A stretch of DNA of 64,000 bases from Candidatus Saccharimonadota bacterium (GCA_017431725.1 JAFRKN010000014.1:1-64000); one strand, 5' to 3'; counted from the first letter of the stretch, positions 44,089 to 52,800 are shown. Translations and numbers: made by a program. Notes: generated by a model from the letters alone, not told the origin.

Positions 44089-44120
44089 TCTGTCTTCTTT
44101 TTGAGTGTGAGCTCGGCAGA
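44089..44120 (+). promoter_or_regulatory. Leader hairpin upstream of fusA
   Basis: TCTGTC (44089-44094) pairs with GGCAGA (44115-44120), one wobble. A TGATAGAAT -10 lies upstream (~44072-44080), and AAAGGAG precedes the ATG at 44146. Confidence 0.45.
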
Positions 44121-44145
44121 AAACAATAATAAAATAAAGGAGCAT

Positions 44146-46245
44146 ATGGCTACTGACATTAAGGATTTAAGTAAGCTGCGAAATATCGGGATTATTGCTC
44201 ATATTGACGCAGGGAAAACTACGACTTCTGAGGCGATTTTGTATCGCACAGGTTTAAAACATAAGATTGATTTAGTAAAAGGGGGAACTGGTGGTGCTGA
44301 TACTGACTGGATGGAACAGGAAAAGGAACGTGGAATTACCATTACTTCAGCGGCCGTAACAGTTTATTGGAAGAATCATCAAATTAATATTATTGACACT
44401 CCGGGCCATATTGATTTTACGGCGGAGGTGGAGCGGTCTCTGCGCGTGTTGGATGGCGCAGTAGTAGTTTTTGACGGAAAAATGGGAGTAGAGGCGCAGT
44501 CCGAGACGGTTTGGCGCCAAGCGACCAAATATGGCGTGCCACGTATCTGTTTTGTAAATAAAATTAATCAGATTGGTGGAGATTTTTATAAATCACTTGA
44601 TTCTATCCATAAGCGTTTATCGAAAAATGCAGTGGCCATCCATCTTCCGATTGGTTTTGAAAAAGACATTTGTGGAGTAGTTGATTTAATTGATATGAAG
44701 GCTTACACCTATAAAGATTACGCCGATCATGAATTGACTGTGGGTGAAATTCCAGCTGATATGGTAGAAAAGGCCAAAAATGCGCGTTCGATGTTGATTG
44801 AAGAAGCAGTGCAAGCGGACGAAGCTTTGATGGATAAGTTCTTTAGCGAAGGTGAAGATTCAATTACGGTAGATGAATTAAAAGCAGCACTTCGAAAACG
44901 GGTTCTAGACGGTGATTTCTTCTTGGTGACCGGTGGAGATGGACGCGGAGTGATTGTGGAGAAGGTACTTGACCTTATGACCGATTATTTGCCATCACCG
45001 CTCGATCGTGATCAGGGACAAACCGTCGGAACGAATCCAAAAACTGGCGACCAGGTGGTCCGTAAAGCGGATAATTCTGAGCCTTTGACGGCATTGGCCT
45101 TTAAAATTGCGACGGATCCATTTGTAGGTAAGTTGATTTTTATTCGCGTTTATGCAGGGAAATTAAAGTCTGGCGATACTATTTTGAATGCTTCGACTGG
45201 TGATAAAGAACGAATTGGACGTTTAGTTCGGATGCATGCCAATGACCGAAAGGATATTTCGGAAATCGGGGCGGGGGACATTGCGGCAGTAGTAGGATTA
45301 AAGAATTGTACAACTGGGACGACTTTGTGTGATCCAGCACATCCGATTTTGTTGGAGTCAATTGACTTTCCCGATCCACCGGTATCGATTGCTGTAGAAC
45401 CTAAAACTAAAGCTGATCAGGAAAAAATGGGGATTGGGCTATCGAAAATGGCTGAGGAAGACCCAACTTTCCGCGTGCATACCGATGAGGAAACGGGACA
45501 GACGATTATTTCGGGTATGGGCGAGCTGCATCTTGAGATTATTATTGACCGCTTGAAACGCGAACACAATGTTGAGGCCAATACGGGTGCGCCACAGGTA
45601 GCTTATCGTGAAACGATTAAGGGAACGGCAGAAGCTCAGGGTAAACATATTAAGCAGTCTGGTGGACGTGGTCAGTATGGTGATGTTTGGATTAAGTTTG
45701 AGCCAAATGAGGCGGGAAAGGGCTTTGAGTTTATTGATCAAATTAAGGGTGGTGTGGTGCCACAAGAATATCGTAAACCAGTCCAGAAAGGCGTTGAAGA
45801 TACGCTTGCTGGTGGTGTCATTGCTGGTTATCCAGTGGTTGACGTCAAGGCAACTCTTTACGATGGCTCCTACCACGACGTAGACTCCTCTGAGCTCGCC
45901 TTTACCCTCGCTGGTAGTTTGGCAACCCGTGAAGGCATCAAAAAGGCTAATCCAGTATTACTTGAGCCGGTTATGAAGATGGAAATTACCACGCCAGAAG
46001 ATTTCATGGGTGACGTGATTGGTGATATCAACTCGAGACGGGGACGTATTGACGAGATGGAAGATTTGAATGGTGGAGCGAAATTAATTAAAGCATTTTG
46101 TCCGTTGGCTAATTTGTTTGGTTATACTGGGGATTTGCGTGGAATGACGCAAGGGCGGGCGGCTTCTTCGATGGAACTCTATGCCTATGAGGAAGTTCCA
46201 CCGAACGTAGCTCAAGAAATTATTGAAAAGCGGAATTCGAAATAA
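44146..46245 (+). CDS. fusA: Elongation factor G
   Basis: This translocation GTPase is 699 residues from the ATG at 44146, where AAAGGAG supports the start; a frame opening at 44101 runs through the leader and is rejected. Motifs: AHIDAGKTT (G1), [10 protein letters not shown] (G2), DTPGHIDF (G3), NKIN (G4), then domains II-V ([38 protein letters not shown]). The usual NKxD is NKIN here. It ends in a strong terminator. In most bacteria it follows rpsG directly. Confidence 0.98.
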
Positions 46246-46316: not shown

Positions 46317-47147
46317 ATGAAAAATTTTAATAAACTAGGTGAGAGCGGAAATACAGAACGAGAGACTGAGAAGGACGAGTTTCAATATGACTCTAAGGAA
46401 GAAGCTAGGCAAGAAGCGATTTATCATTCAAGTGAAATAAAAGATTCTGAATTTTCATTCGCAAAAAGACTGATGAAGTTAGAAGAAACAGAGGGAAAAA
46501 TGAGCGAAAAAGAACTTGAACGATGGGAAGATATACTTGCCGGCGAATACAAAAGAATGGAGGAAAATTTAGAGTTGGGTGAAATACGTGGTACTGAAGC
46601 GCGAACTGAAGTGTTACAACATATGGTTGCATATCCTGGAGAGGGGAAAGAAAAAGATTTAAGAAATACAATCGAAGCCAGATCTGGTGATTTTTTCTAC
46701 GAAAGAAGGGAGGCACTCAAAAAGGCGGCTGATGATCCAGGAGTAGATAAGAAGAAAAAAAGTGAAGTCAATGATCTTCTTAATAAATTTGTGAGTGTGG
46801 TTTATGAACACATCGATTTAAAATATATGGATAAACAAGATATTCGTGAACAATATGGAGATGATGGGCATATGTACGAATATACAAGACGCACGATTCA
46901 TAATAATGCCATAAAATATCTTAATGAATTAAATAATTTAGCAAAAGAATTAAACGTTCGCCCTTTTACTCCTCGTAATTTTTTGCCATCGGATTTAGTG
47001 GATGAAAAACACCAAACTGGGGCGGAAAAAATTGTTTTTAGATATGATAGAGATATTGTAGAAGAATATTATGCTTTTGCATTTCCTAGTGCTACAAGAA
47101 AAGCTCAGGCCATAGCAGATCAAAAGCAACGATTCGGGATTTATTAA
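46317..47147 (+). CDS. Hypothetical charged cytoplasmic protein (276 aa)
   Basis: I do not recognise this protein with confidence. It is hydrophilic and helical, rich in Glu and Lys, with no signal peptide or membrane segment. The C-terminal part (RRTIHNNAIKYLNELNNLAK, then FLPSDLVDE and VFRYDRDIVEEYYAFAF) looks like a folded domain and vaguely recalls DUF3232-type proteins. GAGG precedes the ATG. It stands alone between the fusA terminator and a minus-strand small gene. Confidence 0.6.
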   Translation: MKNFNKLGESGNTERETEKDEFQYDSKEEARQEAIYHSSEIKDSEFSFAKRLMKLEETEGKMSEKELERWEDILAGEYKRMEENLELGEIRGTEARTEVLQHMVAYPGEGKEKDLRNTIEARSGDFFYERREALKKAADDPGVDKKKKSEVNDLLNKFVSVVYEHIDLKYMDKQDIREQYGDDGHMYEYTRRTIHNNAIKYLNELNNLAKELNVRPFTPRNFLPSDLVDEKHQTGAEKIVFRYDRDIVEEYYAFAFPSATRKAQAIADQKQRFGIY

Positions 47148-47183: not shown

Positions 47184-47429
47184 CTATTGATAAATTGATG
47201 CCCTTGCGGCGATAGCTTCTGCAATTTCCAAAAGATCCATTTCTTCGTCAATGTAGATATTGTTTTCCTTTAAGGATTGAAGAAGAGTAGATTTTTCTTC
47301 TTCGGTCAAACTATTATACCCGAAGTTGAAAAATTGTGCATACTCTTTTGTACTGGCTACTTCCCGCAAAAGATTATGAAAATCTCCTTTAGACATCTCA
47401 AATATTTTGCGTTTAAAATAACCATCCAT
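47184..47429 (-). CDS. Hypothetical small protein (81 aa)
   Basis: This small acidic helical protein (GDFHNLLREVASTKEYAQFF, LTEEEKSTLLQSLKENNI, EIAEAIAARAS) is unknown to me. A promoter (TTGACA-N17-TAAAAT, plus 47465-47493) and a terminator frame it, which supports a real gene. GGTGGG lies 8 nt before the ATG. Confidence 0.6.
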   Translation of the reverse strand: MDGYFKRKIFEMSKGDFHNLLREVASTKEYAQFFNFGYNSLTEEEKSTLLQSLKENNIYIDEEMDLLEIAEAIAARASIYQ

Positions 47430-47500: not shown

Positions 47501-50500
47501 TTATTTACGGGAGAAGGAAACTTTGGAAATTTTTCTGTAGATGATGTAGCCAATGATGCCAACTGCAAAGGCAGAACAGGCAACGAGAACAATATTAAAT
47601 GACTCACTAATATGATTATTATTTTCATTAATTTTACCGGTATTTGGGACGGGGATTAAATCGGGGACTGGCTCTGGAGTAGGAAGTGGAGTTTCTACGT
47701 GGACGGTTTGATCGACATTATAGAGATTGTTGTGCTCGAGAACTAGTTGCTCATCTTGATAGAGATTCTCAAAGATCACCAGCTCGGCGCCAGCTAAATC
47801 TTTCGTATTGAGGGTGAAGCTCATTTCAACCTGGCCACAACATTCGGCAGGAGTAAAAGTAAGTTCGTCTTCTACTGGAGCATCATCGACTAGGAGTTTA
47901 TCGCCAGTACTTTTATCCATAATAGTCCCCTCTAGGGTATATTCTAAATCTGTTTTTAGGCAATATTCTACTTCGTCTACAATTTCTACCTCTTGATTTA
48001 GCGGGAGGATTTTCTTTTTGGTGGAGCGGTTGGTGGCAAAAGTTCTCAGGAAAAGAACCGTGAGCGTTTGATCGGTGTCATTAAGATCACTATGCTCTAA
48101 AACTAGAGTATCTTGATAGAAGAGCTTTTCGAAGACAACAATATCTTGACCGCCGAGACTACTGGAATCAAATTCAAATTCCATCTCAATTTCGCCACAT
48201 TCGGTGGTTGCATTAAGCGGAATGGAACTTTTGACTGGGTTGCCGTCAATAAGTAGTTCTTCACCAGTGTTTTTATCCATCAAAGTCCCTTCTAAAACAA
48301 AATCTACACCCGGGACGACACAATAACTGACCGTATCGACAATTTTTGCGATGTTTTCGGCTTCGACAAATTTATCATCGTCTTTGCTGTCAACGGCAAC
48401 TGTGCCTAAACTTTGAGCAACAAAGCGATTTTCAAAAGTTTTGGTAATAGTTTCGGCTGCTTCCGAAATCGTGGCAAGTTGGGTTGTAGGAGTAATTGGA
48501 ATATAACCAAAGCTTGGCTGCTCGGTAATTTCATAATCGCCGTAAGGGAGATTTTCGAAAGTAATTTGACAAATACCATCAGAGAGCGTTTGAGTCATAA
48601 TGACATCGTTATTTTGAATGGCTTGGCCAGCATGATAAACTAAGCCCCCTGTCTTATTGGTTAAAGTAAAGCTGGTGCCATCTAGCGGGAAATTGCCATT
48701 ATAGGGAGTGCAAGAATTGGTGTCGGCATCAATTTTATTAACAATAATCTGGCCTTTTTTGGCGGTATTGGTAAAAGTAATTTCGGCAGCTTCGGGAGAA
48801 GAAAGCGTCACGGTTTGAGCAGCGCCACCATTATATCCATTGGATGGTGTTTCGGAGATTTGGTAGGTACCATAAGGGAGGTTTTCGAAAGTAACTTCAC
48901 AACTACCAGACGAAAGGGTTTTGGTATCAACAACACTATTAGGAGCAAAAACGGTATTATTGTAATAAATTGAATTGGTAGATTTATTGATTAATTGGAA
49001 AGTGGTGCCATTAAAACTATTGTTACCCACCGTAGTACAACTGTTGGTCTCGGCGTCACGTTTGTTAACTCTGATGCTAGTTTTTTTGATGGTGTTATTA
49101 AAATAAATAATTCCATAGTTTTCTATGCCTCCGGGGGCGAGAAAAAAGCGATGAGGATCGGGATCGGCTACTTCTGATTTACACGTTTCCGATGATAGAT
49201 TATAAAAGGCATTATTGGCGACGGCTTCCTTTACGTAGTATGTTTGTCCAGCTACCAAATCTGAGAAAGTAACCGATGAATCACCATTGGATAAGGTATG
49301 GGTAGCAATCAATGTGCCTTCGCAGCTACCACTATATAAGGAAAATGTAATTCCGTCAAAAGTGCCATTACCTTGTGTATCTGAAGGTGCATTTGTACAA
49401 TCTCGGCTGAGTTCGGCATCACATTTATTGACTTTGATTTTACCAATGGGTTCATTCACGAAGGTGGCAGTAGCAAAAGTTTCCGTGCCATTAACGGTAG
49501 CAGCGACAGATTTACAGCCGGTATCGGTTTCGTAATAATTTGTATTAGTGCCGATGGACTCTTTGATATAATAAGTCTCGTCTGCTTCTAGATTAGTATC
49601 AAATATTACACTGGTATCGTTGTCTGAAAGGGTTTTAGTAGAAATTGGAGTGCCAGAGCAGTTGCTACTACTATAAACGCTGAATTGAATACCAGCGAAA
49701 GACGGAGTATAAGTGCTGGAGCTACTTTGTTTGATGGCTTTGACTTTGCCTGGGATAATTGGGTTATTGGTAAAGGTTACTGTGGCGGAGGATTCGGTGC
49801 CATTCTCTGTGGCAGTGACAGATTTACAACTGGTATCGGTTTCGTAATAATTTGTATTGGTACCGATGGACTCTTTGATATAGTAAGTGGTTCCTTCCGT
49901 AAGATTAGTGTTAAATATTACGCTGCTGTTGCTACCAGAGAGAGTTTTAGTGTCAATCGGGGTACCAGAACAACTACTGCTACTATAAATACTAAATTGA
50001 ATTCCCGCAAAGGATGGGGTATAGGTATTGGAGCTACTCTTCTTCACTGCAGTAACTTTGCCAGGTATGATGGGATCATTGGTAAAAGTAGCGGTAGCAG
50101 AAGAGGTAGTGCCACTGGCGGTTGCAGTTACAGATTTACAGCTAGTATCAGTAAGGTAATAATTGGAGTTGGTTGCAGTCTCTTTGATATAGTAAGTATC
50201 ACCGACTTCTATATCTTCGTCGAAAACCACCCTGTCGCTAGAGCCAGAAATAGTTTTTGTATCAATTGCAGTGCCAGTGCAACTACTTCTCGTATAAAGA
50301 CTAAATTTAATACCGGAGAAAGACGGAGTGTGCGTACTAGAACTACTTTGTTTAATCGCCCTAACTTTACCTGGATTGGATTGTGGTATAGGTTCGTTGG
50401 TAAAGGTCGCAGTGGCGGACGATCCTGTGCCTGTAGTAGTTGCAGTAACAGATTTACAACTGGTATCAGTAAGATAATAATTGGAGTTGGTTGCAGTTTC

Positions 50501-51349
50501 TTTGATATAGTAAGTCTCACCTGCTTCTATGTCTTCATCAAAGACTACTCTATCGCTAGAGCCAGAAATAGTTTTTGTATCAATTGCAGTGCCAGTGCAA
50601 CTACTTCTCGTATAAAGACTAAATTCGATACCAGCGAAAGACGGCTCATCGGTGCTAGAGCTACTTTCTTTAATTGCTCTGACTTTACCTGGAGTTGGAG
50701 TAGGGGTCGGGGTAGCATTTTGTTCAATCCAAATCAAAGCTTGTCTTTCTGAAGTATCCGCAATTCTGTAGAGACTGTAATTTTTTGATTCTATATAAGC
50801 AGAACCATTTGAATTAATATAATTGCTTAGGCCATTAATGATGGCAGTAGCTTGTGAACTGCCTTGACTGCTGAGATAGCTGCGATCATTCGCATACATT
50901 GCTCCGATGGCAATATGCGTTAAGACATATCGCATCGTGCTATTACCTTTGTCCGAACCAAAAAGAGTAGTCATGATGCTATCGCTGGAGTGGGCACTGT
51001 AACCAACTGTACTTAAATAAATTAGCAGTCTCATAGAATCGTAATAACCGGAGGGGGCGGAACCTATAGTATAATAACCGGTGTTAAGCCCGAGTTTGCT
51101 AGGGTTTGCACAATAAGCGTTGATGCTCCCTCTGACTTTGTATTGATCGGTTTGAGCAGTGCTCGAGCCATTGCCATAAACACCATAAGAAGCGTAGTTT
51201 CCATCGCCTGTAACGTAGACTTCGGCTGCGTTAGCATACTTTTGAATAGTTTTAACAACGCCAAAAACCGAAATTGATAATATTAAAATGAATAAGAAGC
51301 TAAAAAATAGCTTGCGAAAAATAATTTTTTTCTCGTACAAAACCAACAT
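47501..51349 (-). CDS. Giant surface adhesin: thioester-like domain, CnaB/SpaA-type repeats, two VaFE-type domains, VPNTG anchor
   Basis: This 1282-residue protein has an uncleaved or cleaved signal helix (~13-34). An N-terminal domain (~43-212) follows, in which Cys80 (INAYCANPS) and Gln203 (RQALIW) match the Cys-Gln pair of TQXA thioester domains. After a Thr-Pro stretch come four near-identical ~104-residue CnaB/SpaA-like repeats (221-635) and three diverged ones (636-974). Two VaFE-type domains (~980-1098, ~1105-1219) contain VVFEKL/VIFENL, and their Q1094 and Q1214 are in DQT. A PT-rich linker, VPNTG (1234-1238), a membrane helix (~1252-1271) and a basic tail finish it. Gram-positive proteins of this design bind host surfaces covalently. 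Domain calls are by eye. Confidence 0.8.
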   Translation of the reverse strand: MLVLYEKKIIFRKLFFSFLFILILSISVFGVVKTIQKYANAAEVYVTGDGNYASYGVYGNGSSTAQTDQYKVRGSINAYCANPSKLGLNTGYYTIGSAPSGYYDSMRLLIYLSTVGYSAHSSDSIMTTLFGSDKGNSTMRYVLTHIAIGAMYANDRSYLSSQGSSQATAIINGLSNYINSNGSAYIESKNYSLYRIADTSERQALIWIEQNATPTPTPTPGKVRAIKESSSSTDEPSFAGIEFSLYTRSSCTGTAIDTKTISGSSDRVVFDEDIEAGETYYIKETATNSNYYLTDTSCKSVTATTTGTGSSATATFTNEPIPQSNPGKVRAIKQSSSSTHTPSFSGIKFSLYTRSSCTGTAIDTKTISGSSDRVVFDEDIEVGDTYYIKETATNSNYYLTDTSCKSVTATASGTTSSATATFTNDPIIPGKVTAVKKSSSNTYTPSFAGIQFSIYSSSSCSGTPIDTKTLSGSNSSVIFNTNLTEGTTYYIKESIGTNTNYYETDTSCKSVTATENGTESSATVTFTNNPIIPGKVKAIKQSSSSTYTPSFAGIQFSVYSSSNCSGTPISTKTLSDNDTSVIFDTNLEADETYYIKESIGTNTNYYETDTGCKSVAATVNGTETFATATFVNEPIGKIKVNKCDAELSRDCTNAPSDTQGNGTFDGITFSLYSGSCEGTLIATHTLSNGDSSVTFSDLVAGQTYYVKEAVANNAFYNLSSETCKSEVADPDPHRFFLAPGGIENYGIIYFNNTIKKTSIRVNKRDAETNSCTTVGNNSFNGTTFQLINKSTNSIYYNNTVFAPNSVVDTKTLSSGSCEVTFENLPYGTYQISETPSNGYNGGAAQTVTLSSPEAAEITFTNTAKKGQIIVNKIDADTNSCTPYNGNFPLDGTSFTLTNKTGGLVYHAGQAIQNNDVIMTQTLSDGICQITFENLPYGDYEITEQPSFGYIPITPTTQLATISEAAETITKTFENRFVAQSLGTVAVDSKDDDKFVEAENIAKIVDTVSYCVVPGVDFVLEGTLMDKNTGEELLIDGNPVKSSIPLNATTECGEIEMEFEFDSSSLGGQDIVVFEKLFYQDTLVLEHSDLNDTDQTLTVLFLRTFATNRSTKKKILPLNQEVEIVDEVEYCLKTDLEYTLEGTIMDKSTGDKLLVDDAPVEDELTFTPAECCGQVEMSFTLNTKDLAGAELVIFENLYQDEQLVLEHNNLYNVDQTVHVETPLPTPEPVPDLIPVPNTGKINENNNHISESFNIVLVACSAFAVGIIGYIIYRKISKVSFSRK
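49445..50689 (-). repeat. Four tandem ~310-bp coding repeats in the adhesin
   Basis: Units begin at residues 221, 327, 430 and 534 (GKVxAxK), 318, 309 and 312 bp apart. Units 1-2 are nearly identical and units 3-4 form a second close pair, suggesting duplication of a two-unit block or pairwise duplication. Each unit keeps two cysteines (SSCTGT; TSCKSV). Confidence 0.9.
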
Positions 51350-51560: not shown

Positions 51561-51590
51561 TTTGGAGCTGGTTTTTATTAGCGCTCCAAA
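51561..51590 (+). promoter_or_regulatory. Leader hairpin upstream of tuf
   Basis: TTTGGAGC (51561-51568) pairs with GCTCCAAA (51583-51590), a perfect 8-bp stem ahead of AAAGGAG. Confidence 0.6.
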
Positions 51591-51615
51591 CATTAATAAT
51601 ATAAAAGGAGAAAGA

Positions 51616-52800
51616 ATGGCAAATTTTGACCGTTCCAAGCCGCACATTAATGTCGGCACCATGGGTCATGTCGACCATGGGAAAACTACTTTAACGGCTG
51701 CGATTACGAGCGTTCTTGCGAAGAGGCTCCCTTCGGACGTTAATAAACCAGTCGCTTATGATCAAATCGATAACGCCCCTGAGGAAAAGGCGCGTGGTAT
51801 TACCATCGCTACTTCTCACCAGGAGTATGAATCCGAAAAGCGTCACTACGCCCACGTTGATATGCCGGGCCACGCTGACTACATTAAAAACATGATTACC
51901 GGCGCTGCACAGGTTGATGGTGCTATCCTCGTTGTTGCGGCAAACGATGGTCCATTACCACAGACCCGTGAGCATGTGCTTCTTGCTCACCAGGTAAACG
52001 TACCGAAGATTATTGTCTTCTTGAATAAGATGGATCTTGCGGATCCTGAACTCGTTGAACTCGTCGAAATGGACGTTCGCGAATTATTGAACAAATATGG
52101 TTTCGATGGCGATAATGCTCCTATTATCAAGGGTTCTGCTACTAAGGCTCTTGAGGGCGATAAAGAGAATGAAGACGCTATCATGGAACTCGTCAAGGCG
52201 ATGGACGAATACTTTGATATTCCAGAGCATGATCTTGATAAACCATTCCTGATGCCAATTGAGGATGTCTTCTCGATTAAAGGTCGTGGCACTGTCGCAA
52301 CTGGTCGTATCGAACAAGGTGTGGTCAAGTTGAACGACGAAGTTGAAATCGTTGGTCTTAAAGACACTCAGAAATCAGTTGTAACTGGTATTGAGGCCTT
52401 CCACAAGACTCTCGATCAAGGTCAAGCTGGCGATAACGCTGGGTTACTACTTCGTGGTATCGAGCGTGATCAAATTGAACGTGGGCAAGTGATTGCAAAA
52501 CCAGGTTCAATTACTCCACACACCGAATTTGAGGCACAAGTTTATATCCTTAAAAAAGAGGAGGGCGGACGCAACACACCATTTTCTAAGGGTTATAAGC
52601 CGCAATTCTACTTCCGCACTACGGATGTTACTGGTGAGGTTGAGCTCCCAGCTGACAAGGAAATTGTCATGCCTGGTGACCAAGTAACCTTTAAGGTTAA
52701 ACTCTTAGCTCCAGTTGCTATGAACGAGCAGGATCGCTTCGCTATCCGCGAAGGCGGTAAGACGGTTGGTTCTGGTGTGATTACTAAGGTTATCAAGTAA
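51616..52800 (+). CDS. tuf: Elongation factor Tu
   Basis: This GTPase (394 aa from the ATG at 51616, with AAAGGAG upstream) delivers aminoacyl-tRNA. It shows GHVDHGKT (18-25), [53 protein letters not shown] and [11 protein letters not shown]. The common DCPGH is DMPGH here. Codon use is more GC-rich than its neighbours, as expected for a highly expressed gene. A frame opening at 51562 runs through the leader hairpin and is rejected. Confidence 0.98.

Follow-up and report, generated by a model that had tools for sequence, protein, structure and literature searches.

A predicted thioester-isopeptide-ester adhesin in a Saccharibacteria genus, encoded at the variable fusA-tuf locus

A 1282-residue protein encoded in a 64,000-nucleotide stretch of a Candidatus Saccharimonadota genome (GCA_017431725.1, JAFRKN010000014.1:1-64000; hereafter the window) is best explained as a sortase-anchored adhesin of the thioester-isopeptide-ester (TIE) type whose most likely partner is a bacterial host, a reading to which, taken whole, we assign a probability of about 0.6. 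The domains predicted from its sequence confirm the TIE arrangement known from covalent adhesins of Gram-positive bacteria, and the protein very probably acts as an adhesin. Walden et al. found TIE adhesins in Gram-positive bacteria only (PMC4450167). A search of the open-access literature, with subscription journals and database annotations outside its scope, returned no report of TIE proteins (thioester, isopeptide or VaFE) in Saccharibacteria or Patescibacteria, and within that searchable, itself incomplete, literature the view of the initial annotation that such a protein is undescribed in Saccharibacteria holds. In the passages searched, work on how Saccharibacteria bind their hosts points to type IV pili and to other adhesins, with thioester or covalent binding unmentioned; a part for type IV pili is shown, and further adhesins acting at close range are proposed with no chemistry specified (PMC12206443, PMC10633639).

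Results

Domain architecture

The reading frame is free of internal stops. It opens with a signal peptide and a predicted thioester domain, continues with seven CnaB/SpaA units and a pair of T-Q ester (VaFE) domains, and closes with a VPNTG sorting signal:

47501-51349, minus strand: gene for the TIE-type surface protein, 1282 aa (open reading frame and domain matches)
51227-51349, minus strand: signal peptide, residues 1-41, with basic start, hydrophobic core and Ala-Asn-Ala/Ala end (hydropathy; cleavage site by eye)
50714-51223, minus strand: predicted thioester domain (TED_2), residues 43-212 (PF20610, head alignment, AlphaFold2 model, PDB fold matches)
51110-51112, minus strand: Cys80, predicted thioester cysteine, in INAYCANPS (invariant in 26/26 heads, sole head cysteine in 25/26)
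50915-50917, minus strand: His145, an invariant residue of the central helix, at a place like that of TQxA in known thioester domains (alignment; putative TQxA equivalent)
50741-50743, minus strand: Gln203, predicted thioester glutamine, in ERQALIW (invariant in 26/26 heads)
48410-50689, minus strand: seven CnaB/SpaA units, residues 221-980 (Pfam SpaA, alignment)
48050-48409, minus strand: T-Q ester (VaFE) domain 1, residues 981-1100 (T983, D1005, E1074, H1086, D1091, Q1094)
47690-48049, minus strand: T-Q ester (VaFE) domain 2, residues 1101-1220 (T1103, D1125, E1194, H1206, Q1214)
47501-47650, minus strand: sorting signal, VPNTG (residues 1234-1238), hydrophobic segment, basic tail and stop (sequence inspection)

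The hydrophobic core of the signal peptide begins at about residue 8 and Ala-Asn-Ala/Ala lies close to residue 41, as judged by hydropathy only. Behind this signal peptide, the thioester domain, recognized by its TED_2 score and fold matches, occupies the N-terminal place that it has in TIE proteins.

The predicted thioester head

Cys80 and Gln203 had been proposed in the initial annotation as the Cys-Gln pair of a TQXA thioester domain, and both positions were borne out by an alignment of the window head with 25 related heads, all from one Saccharibacteria genus. At a mean column identity of 27%, only five columns of this alignment are invariant (Cys80, Pro83, His145, Gln203 and Trp207 in protein numbering), and a second cysteine is absent from 25 of the 26 heads. 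Since Cys80 and Gln203 are kept without exception among heads this divergent, their conservation exceeds chance.

The prediction of a thioester domain was likewise supported, although not its assignment to the TQXA family. Scanned alone against Pfam, the head matched TED_2 (PF20610), the sister thioester family of PF08341, with 31.8 bits against a cut-off of 27 (E=1.6e-7), a match that was missed in the scan of the whole protein and surfaced with the isolated N-terminal domain; 24 of the 26 heads of the genus match TED_2 at E<=0.01. The complete lack of a thioester-domain match, which the initial annotation had named as fatal to its proposal, did not occur. PF08341 has zero matches in the window genome and none among the 26 heads at E<=0.01, and the TQxxPhiW/TQxA motif of the central helix is absent from the 26-head alignment, the window head reading THIAIGAMY and its relatives mostly [TVSI]HAxIG at this site; the invariant His motif would be the positional counterpart of TQxA. 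Among NCBIfam models the head of the window protein has no match, and one relative reaches NF012162 ('thioester-forming surface-anchored protein') at E=0.025.

An AlphaFold2 model of residues 43-212 (pLDDT 92.3, pTM 0.89) was compared with solved structures along the lines suggested beforehand. The six PDB chains closest to it in fold all belong to thioester-domain structures, from four entries (5a0n, 6fwy, 6fwv, 6fx6). Beyond the top six the E-values climb above 1, leaving thioester domains as the sole credible matches, with TM-scores to known thioester domains that are modest (0.34-0.48). Searching PDB sequences with a profile of the heads gave no credible match, and the solved heads of SfbI, FbaB and Cpa showed no sequence match to the window head; sequence identity among genuine thioester domains is very low (Walden et al., PMC4450167). 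A likeness of the head to intelectin (phmmer E~0.001) was rejected because it covers only the N-terminal 70 residues and no intelectin is among the fold matches shown.

The Cys-Gln spacing in the window head is 123, compared with 129-153 in class I thioester domains and with Cys138-Gln267 in CpTIE (PMC4450167), and by this measure the head resembles class I rather than class II, in which a sandwich is inserted. The sequence YCAN around Cys80 conforms to the [YFL]C-hydrophobic-hydrophilic cysteine motif. The weak consensus of the glutamine motif fits most relatives; the window sequence RQALI departs from it and fits loosely. We consider it highly likely that Cys80 and Gln203 form an internal thioester.

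Stalk domains

The counts of seven CnaB/SpaA-like units and two VaFE-type domains in the initial annotation were confirmed. Pfam SpaA matches the protein in six stretches (E=1.2e-37), with units starting at residues 221, 327, 430, 534, 636, 757 and 866, and unit 6 matches the PDB CnaB chain 7k1u (E=8.4e-07). The isopeptide element of the TIE architecture is present throughout, the Lys-Glu-Asn triad being kept in all seven units of the alignment (Lys/Glu/Asn 227/284/318, 333/390/424, 436/493/528, 540/597/632, 642/708/752, 763/833/861 and 872/943/974 in units 1 to 7). So is the ester element, with the Thr-Asp-Glu-His-Gln set kept in both VaFE domains, which are matched by NF033903 (E=1.4e-52) and PF18202 (E=3.7e-44); a profile of these domains finds PDB entries 4mkm and 4ni6 (Cpe0147) and other solved ester-bond adhesin domains, the regions around His and Gln being matched in the alignments. 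In ester domain 2, N1211 replaces the Asp at the position of Cpe0147 Asp577, a change that is likely tolerable since the D577A mutant of Cpe0147 retained 86% of cross-linking (PMC12679949).

Each ester domain also contains a pair of cysteines (C1010/C1051 in domain 1, C1130/C1171 in domain 2). All 25 terminal ester domains compared within the genus keep these two extra cysteines, which Cpe0147 lacks at the aligned positions; paired cysteines are present in the CnaB units as well. It is possible that the pairs form disulfides, which in the ester domains would come on top of the ester bonds. VKOR, which would serve disulfide formation, was not found in the genome.

Anchoring and the question of a pilus

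The VPNTG tail, followed by its hydrophobic segment and basic residues, is as initially described. This LPxTG-type signal is accompanied by two sortase genes in the genome (G000:C9:71797 and C8:73248), the nearer of which lies about 20 kb from the adhesin gene and scores 80 bits as class C sortase against a cut-off of 160. The initial annotation had taken the architecture for that of a pilus-tip adhesin; all sequence parts of a covalent TIE adhesin are indeed there, but the pilus tip is not supported. Inspection by eye revealed no pilin-type gene adjoining either sortase gene, and in place of a pilin cluster with a dedicated class C sortase, the gene stands between fusA and tuf. The architecture is that of a stand-alone TIE adhesin, and nothing points to a pilus tip.

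A variable islet between fusA and tuf

The flanks of the adhesin gene are conserved:

44101-46245, plus strand: fusA, conserved islet flank (Pfam, synteny)
51562-52800, plus strand: tuf, conserved islet flank (Pfam, synteny)

Two small genes lie between fusA and the adhesin gene (46317-47147, plus strand; 47184-47429, minus strand), neither with a Pfam or NCBIfam match. In 20 of 20 other genomes with a thioester-domain gene beside fusA (12 from the first search and 8 from a follow-up set), this gene runs opposite to fusA and precedes tuf where the contig reaches that far, two contigs stopping short of it. At this shared locus identity to the window flanks is 93-98% for fusA and 92-98% for tuf, and the heads of the relatives share 21-37% with the window head. 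Contamination or mis-binning was rejected as the origin of the adhesin gene, since it lies between Saccharibacteria fusA and tuf genes whose relatives at the same place are this similar. A check of GC content for recent transfer revealed no sign.

The follow-up set comprised 40 further genus members picked for lack of a head in the first search, and as a non-random sample it yields counts that are not population frequencies. Of these 40, 8 carry a thioester-domain gene in the fusA-tuf interval, 1 carries an anchored protein lacking such a domain and 22 carry other ORFs; the interval is empty in 7, with tuf within about 260 bp, and in 2 tuf does not follow fusA. Three heads (L026, L027, L033) sit outside the islet. 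Mean identity is 30% for the head vs 46% for the terminal ester domain, and the head is the less conserved in 97% of pairs, as expected of a target-specific part. Judged from these sequence comparisons, fusA-tuf is a variable islet in which the putative target-facing part diverges fast.

Further arrangements were seen in sister species. Tandem pairs of thioester adhesin genes with unlike heads occupy the same islet at two loci (L025, 5354-9799 and 9876-12905; L035, 4708-7095 and 7187-10489), and at L058 (3108-7372) part of it holds two large genes, one ending in repeats that by eye are InlB-type-like. Near tuf, several sister species encode a protein of about 460 residues with an xPxTG-type tail, perhaps a second anchored surface protein (L029 13358-14743, L035 1663-3021, L038 5779-7152, L040 6470-7867, L057 7552-8943, L058 8730-10085, L066 7059-8444), which is absent from the tuf flank of the window.

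Distribution in the class

Among 393 genomes from the class, 32 matched the head profile, all within one of the 151 genera sampled, and T-Q ester domains showed nearly the same limit, being found in 31 members of this genus, plus two weak matches. The window-type TIE family thus appears, from profile matches, to be confined to one genus. Thioester domains as such are not unique to it, because PF08341 matches occur in two other genera (G010 and G006) and sub-threshold PF20610 matches in two other genera; the G006 match is the weaker one, in a fragmented assembly where contamination is possible. At L111 (G010:C1:170112-170420), a canonical PF08341 thioester domain with a TQLAIW motif is followed by repeats in another Saccharibacteria genus. 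The head matched no plasmid sequence.

A contig profile search with a four-row subset of the head alignment found four named relatives, all of which are Candidatus Saccharibacteria MAGs; three come from the ruminant gut (caecum of water buffalo, jejunum and omasum of sheep). Within the genus the gene is patchy, and therefore no universal attachment device. Giant relatives are encoded on other contigs of sister species (G134:C8, G163:C7/C15, G255:C1, G287:C1, G213:C17 and G269:C2; loci L107-L110), with ORFs of 1600-2029 residues that match the head weakly and contain as many as about 11 ester domains.

Discussion

Following the logic of TIE proteins (PMC4450167, PMC6194298), the N-terminal head would close its internal Cys80-Gln203 thioester after export, and sortase would anchor the protein to the cell wall through its VPNTG signal. 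The seven CnaB units with Lys-Asn isopeptide bonds and the two ester domains with Thr-Gln bonds would form a rigid, force-resistant stalk holding the head off the wall, and once docked on the partner, the head would pass its Gln acyl group to a nucleophile, a Lys amine or a sugar hydroxyl, leaving a permanent tether. Bond formation, thioester reactivity and a host bacterium as target are what we infer from this architecture. Cultivated Saccharibacteria are episymbionts dependent on bacterial hosts (PMC12206443), so the likeliest partner is a surface molecule of the bacterial host, and by this analogy we lean towards a bacterium as the target. The wider proposal that one episymbiotic genus attaches to its bacterial hosts by thioester bonding, with target-specific heads of the chromosomal fusA-tuf islet diversifying, being swapped or vanishing, is tentative, and we place it somewhat short of even odds.

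The same protein could instead bind animal mucus, epithelium or plant fibre and so hold the cell in its gut habitat. Known reactive thioester domains do aim at animal proteins, as SfbI does at fibrinogen (PMC4450167), three of the four named relatives are gut MAGs, and the restriction of heads to one of 151 genera is more in keeping with a niche than with a need of the whole class; however, the gene is patchy inside that genus too, the cultivated members of the group need bacterial hosts (PMC12206443), and TIEpLS20 of a Bacillus subtilis plasmid shows that bacterial targets occur. We regard a gut-tissue or fibre target as unlikely. The function of TIEpLS20 also suggests an adhesin for mating or aggregation, joining Saccharibacteria to one another or to any neighbour for DNA exchange, but no conjugation genes were seen adjoining the gene, which lies with two small genes between fusA and tuf, and this reading is very improbable.

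A head with the thioester-domain fold but without a reactive thioester, binding non-covalently or serving as a mere structural cap, might be read from the His-containing motif in place of TQxA. The TQxA residues are, however, dispensable for the thioester bond and incompletely conserved among thioester domains (Walden et al., PMC4450167), and Cys and Gln make up two of the five invariant columns in 26 divergent heads from which other cysteines are absent; a non-reactive head is accordingly very unlikely in our view.

If true, a covalent adhesin in which one domain and two residues do the binding would offer a concrete mechanism for host fixation, which is largely unexplained in Saccharibacteria, and would extend TIE adhesins from Gram-positive bacteria to an ultrasmall lineage. 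The thioester domain would carry a 17-Da mass signature, making the proposal testable, and the variable fusA-tuf locus would be a place at which the genome may reveal the host-specific part.

Comparison with known systems

The window protein shares with the Gram-positive TIE proteins BaTIE, SaTIE, EfmTIE86, PnTIE and CpTIE the succession of signal peptide, thioester domain, isopeptide and/or ester stalk and sorting signal, and the first four of these are the top fold matches of its head. It differs from them in its ultrasmall Saccharibacteria lineage, in a TED_2 head without TQxA, in a shorter Cys-Gln spacing and in the Cys pairs of its stalk modules. SfbI, FbaB and Cpa of Streptococcus pyogenes likewise have class I thioester heads with similar Cys-Gln spacing, SfbI and FbaB bonding covalently to fibrinogen (PMC4450167), but they have an animal host target and other stalks, and Cpa sits on a pilus. 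In the ester domains, the Thr, His and Gln and the buried Asp/Glu positions of the Cpe0147-type domains of Clostridium perfringens are kept (roles: PMC12679949), whereas Cpe0147 is without the two extra cysteines. Within the class, the PF08341 domains of G010 and G006 are likewise located close to the N-terminal end of a large protein with repeats, that of G010 differing from the window head as a canonical thioester domain with TQLAIW.

The closest functional parallel is TIEpLS20, the product of gene 34 on pLS20, a conjugative plasmid of B. subtilis. This thioester adhesin works between bacterial cells and also has a single head cysteine. It promotes mating contact in Bacillus conjugation, and its C68S mutant is non-functional (PMC8092201). 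Unlike the window protein, TIEpLS20 has a class II head (Cys68-Gln256), three Cna-like domains and no sortase anchor, and it serves plasmid conjugation rather than episymbiosis; as a precedent, it makes covalent attachment of the window protein to a bacterial host plausible.
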